Assembly: GCF_004965515.1 (NCBI RefSeq)
Contig: NZ_SSHH01000001.1
Span: 623,280-687,279, forward strand
Origin: Alteraurantiacibacter aquimixticola
Lineage (GTDB): Bacteria; Pseudomonadota; Alphaproteobacteria; Sphingomonadales; Sphingomonadaceae
DNA length: 64,000 nucleotides
Reading direction: 5' to 3'
Shown in pieces: positions 44,552 through 62,951 of the stretch (its first letter is position 1; each line of letters begins with the position of its first letter). The translations under genes and the position numbers were made by a program. The notes below the pieces were generated by a model, which was not told the origin of the DNA, made no database searches, and saw only the letters and a program-made list of their open reading frames with translations.

Positions 44552-44567
44552 TGGCACACCTCCTGCA
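44552..44567 (+). promoter_or_regulatory. Candidate sigma-54 promoter (-24/-12) of the PspC operon
   Basis: TGGCAC-ACCTCC-TGCA has GG and GC exactly ten bases apart (GG 44553-44554, GC 44565-44566) and a preceding CAAAAC. This fits the consensus TGGCAC-N5-TTGCA. Expected transcription start is near 44578, about 48 bases before the first gene. A near-identical element occurs at 62144. Confidence 0.75.
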
Positions 44568-62021: not shown

Positions 62022-62143
62022 GCACTTGATCCGCCGGAAGTCGCAGGCGGGAGGGGCGAAATGTCGGGAGATTTTACACTAGCGGGAGCAGTTAACGTTT
62101 CGCCAACCATCGTCTCCCGCACAAATCCGCGATTGCGCAAAAC

Positions 62144-62159
62144 TGGCACGGGGCATGCA
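62144..62159 (+). promoter_or_regulatory. Candidate sigma-54 promoter with no gene behind it
   Basis: TGGCAC-GGGGCA-TGCA has GG and GC ten bases apart and shares the flanks CAAAAC before and TGCAA after with the promoter at 44552. The TTGCGCAA palindrome at 62133-62140 precedes it. Expected start near 62170. The next plus-strand stretch is a folded RNA and not a gene. Confidence 0.7.
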
Positions 62160-62169
62160 ATGTAATTGG

Positions 62170-62262
62170 CGTAAGAAGTTCTTCGAACGAGGCGGGGCCT
62201 ACCCCTAGATTGAAGTCTAGATCCCCGAAGTCTCCAGGCTCCGCCTCCCCGAAGAACCTTTC
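62170..62262 (+). ncRNA. Candidate structured RNA behind sigma-54 promoter
   Basis: The RNA would fold as a long arm. The outer stem is TTCTTCG (62179-62185) with CGAAGAA (62250-62256), extended by G78-C257 and, past a bulge, two A-U pairs. A small internal loop comes next, followed by the 12-pair stem GAGGCGGGGCCT (62189-62200) with AGGCTCCGCCTC (62236-62247; one G-U). An inner hairpin CTAGA-TTGAAG-TCTAG (62205-62220) lies in the loop. No convincing ORF lies in or after it on the plus strand. Confidence 0.45.
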
Positions 62263-62304
62263 CCCGAAAATCGCGACGATGATCAGCGGCGGCCGCTCCA
62301 GGGC

Positions 62305-62339
62305 GGTTCGCTGCGGACGCGCGTTCGCGCTAGCGAACC
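62305..62339. other. Hairpin in the gene-free 62.0-62.6 kb gap
   Basis: GGTTCGCT (62305-62312) and AGCGAACC (62332-62339) form an 8-pair stem. It lies between the candidate sigma-54 RNA and repeat copy 2; no T tract follows. The rest of the 62022-62621 gap holds the promoter, the folded RNA and the repeat. Confidence 0.4.
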
Positions 62340-62369
62340 TGCAGCCCGTCACAGGGCTTGGCGGAGAAT

Positions 62370-62523
62370 TGAGGGCCGGTTCTCGGTCGCGGCAGCCAAA
62401 GGCCGACCGGCCGCCCCCTTCTGCTGGCTGCTTGCAGCAGCCGCTCAGGATAAACTTCGGCGCCCCGCAGCGAAGCGAAGGGAATAGCGCCGGGGATGCC
62501 AGCCCGGATGGGCTGGCGTAACC
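62370..62523. repeat. Dispersed intergenic repeat, copy 2, with hairpin
   Basis: The core at 62477-62522 matches 1850-1896. The hairpin is GCCAGCCC-GGAT-GGGCTGGC; compared with copy 1 a C-G pair became A-T in both arms. It lies 99 bases after the grxD stop, on the 3' side, just as copy 1 lies beyond the cysH end. Confidence 0.65.
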
Positions 62524-62621
62524 GACAGAATGCGAAGCCATAGGCCAAACGGCCGCCCGCAGCGGGGCAGCTTTGCTGCCCGTCTAGCGAGGACGAAGGC
62601 GCGGATGCGCCTTCGAAACAA

Positions 62622-62951
62622 TCAAGACGCCTTGGCGACCTGCTTTTCCTCGAGCAGCTGCTGCAGCTCGCCGGCCTCGTACATTTCCATCATGATGTCG
62701 CTGCCGCCCAGGAACTCGCCCTTGACGTAAAGCTGGGGGATGGTCGGCCAGTCGGAGAAGCTTTTGATCCCCTGGCGCACTTCCATGTCCTGCAGCACGT
62801 CCACGCTTTCGAAAGCGACGTTGCAATGGTCGAGGATGGCCACGGCGCGGCTGGAGAAGCCGCATTGCGGGAACAGCGGCGTGCCCTTCATGAAGAGCAC
62901 GACATCGCTATCGTTCACGATCTTGGAAATACGTTCGTTGACGTCAGACAT
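62622..62951 (-). CDS. grxD: Monothiol glutaredoxin Grx4 type
   Basis: A 109-residue CGFS glutaredoxin: C30-G-F-S in LFPQCGFSSRA, the TIPQLYVKGEFLGGSDI glutathione site. It carries and passes 2Fe-2S clusters, usually with BolA. ATG at 62951 gives MSDVNERISKIV. The bolA gene lies just upstream on the same strand, 32 bases away, the usual pairing. Confidence 0.95.
   Translation of the reverse strand: MSDVNERISKIVNDSDVVLFMKGTPLFPQCGFSSRAVAILDHCNVAFESVDVLQDMEVRQGIKSFSDWPTIPQLYVKGEFLGGSDIMMEMYEAGELQQLLEEKQVAKAS

Follow-up and report, generated by a model that had tools for sequence, protein, structure and literature searches.

A predicted small RNA behind a PrsR-type sigma-54 promoter in Alteraurantiacibacter aquimixticola and its family

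Results

A sigma-54 promoter and a folded RNA between two converging genes

The window, the whole stretch of 64,000 nucleotides (nt) analysed here, is part of the 3.43 Mb genome of Alteraurantiacibacter aquimixticola. Its sequence and open reading frames leave a gap of 600 bases (62022-62621) between two converging genes, and in this gap stand a predicted activator box, a sigma-54 promoter and, directly behind it, a predicted small RNA dominated by a long two-part stem (Table 1). A preliminary description of the window had pointed to a sigma-54 element with no gene behind it, and the element is indeed there, reading TGGCACGGGGCATGCA from 62144, where its TGG lies, with the correct GG-N10-GC spacing. 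Between this promoter and the converging grxD gene there is no gene on the same strand, so no PEP-CTERM gene follows it. Since, moreover, no conserved open reading frame is found within the RNA, we rejected the possibility that the transcript is the leader of a coding gene.

Table 1. Features of the gap and the genes that flank it (window coordinates)
Feature	Position	Strand	Basis or remark
PrsR/PEP-CTERM box TGTCGGGAGATTTTACA, predicted activator site	62062..62078	+	17 nt, ends TTTACA as in Haft et al. (2006)
Sigma-54 -24/-12 promoter TGGCACGGGGCATGCAA	62144..62160	+	sequence; conserved in genus alignment
Predicted small RNA	62170..62262	+	start inferred 12 nt past the -12 C; fold, genus alignment A1, covariance model R1
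Outer stem, 5' arm	62178..62185	+	pairs with 62250-62257 (8 pairs)
Inner stem, 5' arm	62189..62200	+	pairs with 62236-62247 (12 pairs)
Lineage-specific loop hairpin CTAGATTGAAGTCTAG	62205..62220	+	fold
C-rich loop segment AGTCTCC, proposed site of pairing	62229..62235	+	conserved
Inner stem, 3' arm	62236..62247	+	fold; paired cells in genus and outside it
Outer stem, 3' arm	62250..62257	+	pairing computed in genus and outside rows; fold
Gamma-carbonic-anhydrase-like gene	ends 62021	+	158.5 bits, under the curated cut-off of 250
Grx4-type glutaredoxin gene (grxD)	from 62622	-	154.5 bits, cut-off 117.1

The box, which the preliminary description overlooked, is presumed from its sequence to be a site for PrsR. 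According to Haft et al. (2006; PMC1569441), a 17-nt motif ending in TTTACA, followed after a spacer of 62.8 +- 10.6 nt by a sigma-54 site, precedes PEP-CTERM genes in proteobacteria and is assigned to PrsR, the response regulator of the exosortase/exopolysaccharide system; a downstream PEP-CTERM gene is typical, not universal, and a few sites precede other genes. The box in the window, its 65-nt spacer and the element at 62144-62160 fit this description, the comparison being made with the text and not with the published logo; the promoter differs from most described there in preceding a folded RNA. Between box and promoter, at 62091-62116, there is also a conserved block resembling GTTAAC...AACCATCG, which may be a site for a further DNA-binding protein: AACCAT is present in 79 of 120 aligned promoters and TTAA-N6-9-AACC in 42.

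The stretch 62170-62262 folds with -38.5 kcal/mol (z -4.30), a stability reached by none of 200 shuffled sequences; for 62168-62270 the z-score is -3.85, with one shuffle in 200 as good. The two-part stem that had been described as ending near 62260 is recovered at 62178-62257, as outer and inner helices of 8 and 12 pairs. The hairpin said to be enclosed in it does fold, at 62205-62220, but sits in an insertion; 38 of the 40 RNAs of the genus have a gap at that place, and the hairpin therefore lies outside the conserved core.

The RNA is conserved and covaries within the genus

The genus set comprised 40 genomes, the window's own and 39 relatives. A DNA search with 62100-62290 matched 36 of the 39 (E <= 3.5e-5) and the other three (G019, G020 and G037) were recovered by a promoter pattern, so that promoter and RNA are present in all 40 genomes. 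In G035 the -24 element reads TGGCAT. The box pattern, the same one as applied below outside the genus, was positive in 39 of the 40 loci, with a spacer of 64-65 nt, the exception being L005, which has GCGTCAGGAATTTTTACA at the position of the box.

Aligned with each other (alignment A1), the 40 RNAs fold into the 12-pair inner stem, which is paired in 98.8% of cells, with changes on both sides in 5 of its 12 pairs; the 8-pair outer stem is paired in 80.6% of cells, with such changes in 2 pairs. The 20 pairs of both stems hold 31 cells with double-sided change, where shuffled alignments give 13.9 +- 2.9; none of 500 shuffles does as well. Likewise, the covariation score, 0.197, exceeds the shuffled value of 0.144 +- 0.008 (0 of 500), and it falls to 0.044-0.138 when the partner is slid by one to three columns. 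The comparison across relatives, which had been proposed as one check of the RNA, came out in its favour in the count of cells and in this score. Because all 40 genomes carry the RNA with compensatory changes in its stems, the element and its fold are, on this comparative evidence, a conserved, covarying RNA and not a product of chance.

The RNA extends to dozens of genera of the family

With a covariance model (R1) built on the RNA and not on its promoter, matches were found in 89 of 298 genomes of the family and in 33 of its 96 genera, with a single copy per genome in all but two matched genomes. The two are G308 (L108, L123), whose copies are identical, as printed, in upstream and RNA letters, and G304 (L101, L124). 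All 48 genomes with a match in an order-level sample of 296, which is not broken down by family, belong to this same family. Plasmid relatives gave no match.

Outside the genus there were 84 matches, of which 83 were fetched (G227 was left out). Box and sigma-54 element stand upstream of 79 of these 83, by a relaxed box pattern, and in none of 416 background windows taken elsewhere in the longer of the same loci. The spacer is 65 nt in 39 of the 79, 64 in 38, and 63 and 54 in one each. Four matches were missed: L159 and L168 do have the box and TGGCAC, yet GT in place of the GC at -12; L162 and L180 have neither box nor sigma-54 element and look like chance matches. Three diverged copies (L055-L057), met through the similarity of their promoters, are each followed by a hairpin and then a run of T.

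An alignment of 80 RNAs from outside the genus (A3), which omits L162, L180 and the second copy of G308 (L123), has 96.3% of the inner-stem cells paired and 9 of 12 pairs changed on both sides, with 68 double-sided cells against 17.3 +- 7.8 after shuffling (0 of 500); A3 was fitted to the covariance model, which favours structure. The outer stem is less well preserved outside the genus, with 54-87% of cells paired depending on the segment. The loop motif [GA]TCTCC is found in 109 of the 125 RNA rows, and in other genera the loop tends to be shorter; the 125 rows in all, and the 85 from outside the genus, count one place (in G047, as L048 and L100) twice.

No match in Rfam; a terminator or a short peptide is improbable

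No Rfam family scores above its gathering threshold in the gap, so that a known Rfam RNA was rejected; in 62040-62640 the sole weak match lies outside the RNA and reaches 14.9 bits against a gathering score of 59. Elsewhere in the window there is a suhB/mmgR small RNA (1900-1979, - strand; Rfam RF00519, 49.9 bits, gathering score 41).

Given the convergent genes, the hairpin might be a terminator or another 3' element serving them, with the promoter incidental to it. In 68 of the 85 outside rows, and in 11 of the 40 genus loci, grxD is found no more than 800 nt downstream, which would suit this explanation. It is nonetheless very unlikely, since box and promoter stand ahead of nearly all the outside matches at an almost fixed spacing, since no terminator-like site is found on either strand of 62022-62640, and since the neighbours change from genome to genome while promoter and RNA stay together; a terminator only is thus disfavoured. 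The region between the RNA and grxD (62300-62620) is GC-rich and holds several imperfect repeats, both inverted and direct, which may be repeat debris.

That the transcript encodes a short peptide appears extremely improbable. Mechanical frames do cross the region, for example one on the + strand at 62210-62521 starting with TTG. This TTG, however, lies in the insertion missing from 38 of the 40 RNAs of the genus; 109 of the 125 RNA rows hold no complete open reading frame, the longest listed having 17 codons (2 rows unlisted); and the lengths of the loops vary freely while changes in the stem come in pairs.

PrsR, and not PspF, as the likely activator

The preliminary description held that the promoter at 62144 shares its flanks with the one before pspC, at 44552, and that one activator may drive both. 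By eye, the two have little in common beyond the sigma-54 core. Moreover, a scan with T[TG][TAG]ACA found no match in the 110 bases upstream of the promoter at 44552, where there are instead other inverted repeats (by eye), AGTTGG...CCAACT and GGTTGTGCGCACAACC. Joint control of the RNA and the PspC operon by PspF, for which the common core and the presence of a gene for PspF (L040, 470 bits, cut-off 443.55) might speak, is highly improbable in view of the PrsR box, which the RNA promoter has and the pspC promoter lacks; with no shared box, we found no support for it. As the genome encodes both PspF and PrsR, separate activators are available to the two promoters. The psp and RNA promoters are 17.6 kb apart in the window. 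In at least one relative (G035; L043, position 114) the RNA lies about 1.8 kb downstream of a psp-like sigma-54 promoter, which would also suit PspF, and the DNA search gave weak promoter-like matches 1.6-4.6 kb away in G031, G038, G021 and G030.

The genome encodes PrsR (670.3 bits, cut-off 502.6), PrsK (498.1 bits, cut-off 300) and an exosortase (178.2 bits, cut-off 105.55), and EpsB_2 and RpoN are also over their cut-offs; a PrsT-like TPR protein beside prsR scores 106.6 bits against a cut-off of 312.2. In two members of the genus, G015 and G009, the same type of promoter, with a spacer of 54 nt, lies ahead of genes for PEP-CTERM-domain proteins (29.4 and 25.0 bits; cut-off 16). Across the family, PrsR is found in 251 of the 298 genomes; counted by eye, these are 83 of the 89 with a match to the RNA and 168 of the 209 others (Fisher p 0.005; 0.0016 once the two chance matches are dropped). 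The association is modest because PrsR is common.

The genome contains TGTCGG-N5-TTTACA without mismatch twice, once at the RNA promoter and once beside epsB2-prsK-prsR. The second (L050, 11402-11418; G000:C2:307401) lies between epsB2 and a divergent gene and has no sigma-54 site evident by eye; autoregulation is possible. At L118 (G000:C1:841933, - strand) a box with one mismatch stands 43 nt upstream of a sigma-54 element (TGGCATGGGGTTTGCA), 5' of an open reading frame whose product, about 80 amino acids long, is membrane-like; this is possibly a further target of PrsR in this genome. Another TTTACA/sigma-54 site, at C1:762506 among genes that by eye look flagellar, is probably incidental.

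Discussion

The preliminary description's reading of the gap as a sigma-54 promoter followed by a folded small RNA is borne out, as far as sequence comparison can tell, by conservation and covariation. One mark of a sigma-54 small RNA, a conserved -24/-12 promoter ahead of a noncoding folded RNA, is found here, and we regard as real, on comparative grounds, a family of predicted small RNAs, absent from Rfam, behind a PrsR-type sigma-54 promoter. Small RNAs driven by sigma-54 are a known kind: Qrr, GlmY/GlmZ, CrcZ and NrsZ are each a single gene behind a sigma-54 promoter with an NtrC-like activator. The RNA described here resembles them in its promoter; they belong, however, to other bacteria and other activators, and since no Rfam family matches at its gathering score it is no member of those small RNAs in Rfam. 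None was found reported in the PrsR regulon; the literature, most subscription papers being beyond the search, gave no paper that joins PEP-CTERM, small RNA and exosortase, nor, among titles and abstracts, any report of this RNA. The promoter also resembles that of pepA of Aquincola tertiaricarbonis, which is RpoN-dependent, with a mapped start, a TGGCAC -24 motif and a predicted enhancer upstream (PMC9850573); pepA, in contrast, encodes a PEP-CTERM protein.

It is likely that the locus is a small-RNA gene switched by PrsR through the box 65 bases before its sigma-54 promoter, and that the RNA is made alongside the PEP-CTERM/exosortase matrix proteins. PrsK, whose stimulus is described as obscure by Haft et al. 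(2006; PMC1569441), would activate PrsR upon a signal from the surface or the envelope; PrsR would act from the presumed box, and sigma-54 RNA polymerase would initiate near 62170 to give an RNA of about 90 bases, ending soon past the stem. With less certainty, the hairpin may display its C-rich UCUCC loop for pairing with G-rich ribosome-binding sites, and the translation of target mRNAs may then be lowered while the matrix programme is on.

The anti-ribosome-binding-site action of the loop, the less certain part, is proposed by analogy with GsrN of Caulobacter, whose C-rich loop pairs with G-rich sites in mRNAs (PMC5869019); both RNAs have a C-rich loop, and the legend to Figure 9 of that report gives Erythrobacter litoralis as a species with no apparent gsrN-like gene. 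Possible targets were sought among six leaders, those of two PEP-CTERM genes, epsB2, prsK, prsR and a small membrane protein. Alternatively, the same PrsR- and sigma-54-dependent RNA might bind a protein or sponge another small RNA instead of pairing with ribosome-binding sites. The long, stable stem could serve as a site for a protein, and the six leaders yielded no target. We consider this rather unlikely, as the most conserved letters of the loop are C-rich and single-stranded, as they are in GsrN.

Several observations weigh against the proposal of a PrsR-switched RNA that pairs with mRNAs. The six leaders, related to PrsR or the exosortase, show no pairing signal at the 5% level: as many as 103 and 88 of 300 shuffles were as good for the two PEP-CTERM genes, 123 for epsB2, 266 for prsR, 223 for the small membrane protein and 25 for prsK, the best. 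Following the RNA, a hairpin with a run of T is found in none of the 40 genus loci by a simple scan of about 70 nt, and in 33 of the 85 outside rows by the same kind of scan, which also accepts weak hairpins. In the genus alignment, 7 pairs change on both sides, against 5.3 +- 1.1 in shuffles, and 63 of 500 shuffles reach that figure. The box pattern used outside the genus, G[TC]CG-N7-T[TAG]AC[AG], was relaxed after the misses of a stricter first pattern had been seen, which found the box at 47 of the 83 matches. Finally, 168 genomes of the family have PrsR and no match to the model, and six have a match and no PrsR at the cut-off; in one of the six (G109) the match is chance-like, and the remaining five genomes are drafts in at least 90 contigs.

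PrsK, PrsR and the exosortase are widespread, and the box is known mainly ahead of PEP-CTERM genes. With a box ascribed to PrsR in the promoter of an RNA, the exosortase system therefore likely gains an RNA arm. We lean, with somewhat less assurance than for the locus itself, towards a dedicated riboregulatory arm of the exosortase/PEP-CTERM matrix programme, in which a family-wide, mostly single-copy RNA, switched by PrsR and sigma-54, would reprogramme translation through its UCUCC loop while the surface layer is being built. If this is true, a conserved RNA gene with the box, found in dozens of genera, would offer a reporter for PrsR activity, and the exosortase system would be shown to act post-transcriptionally too.
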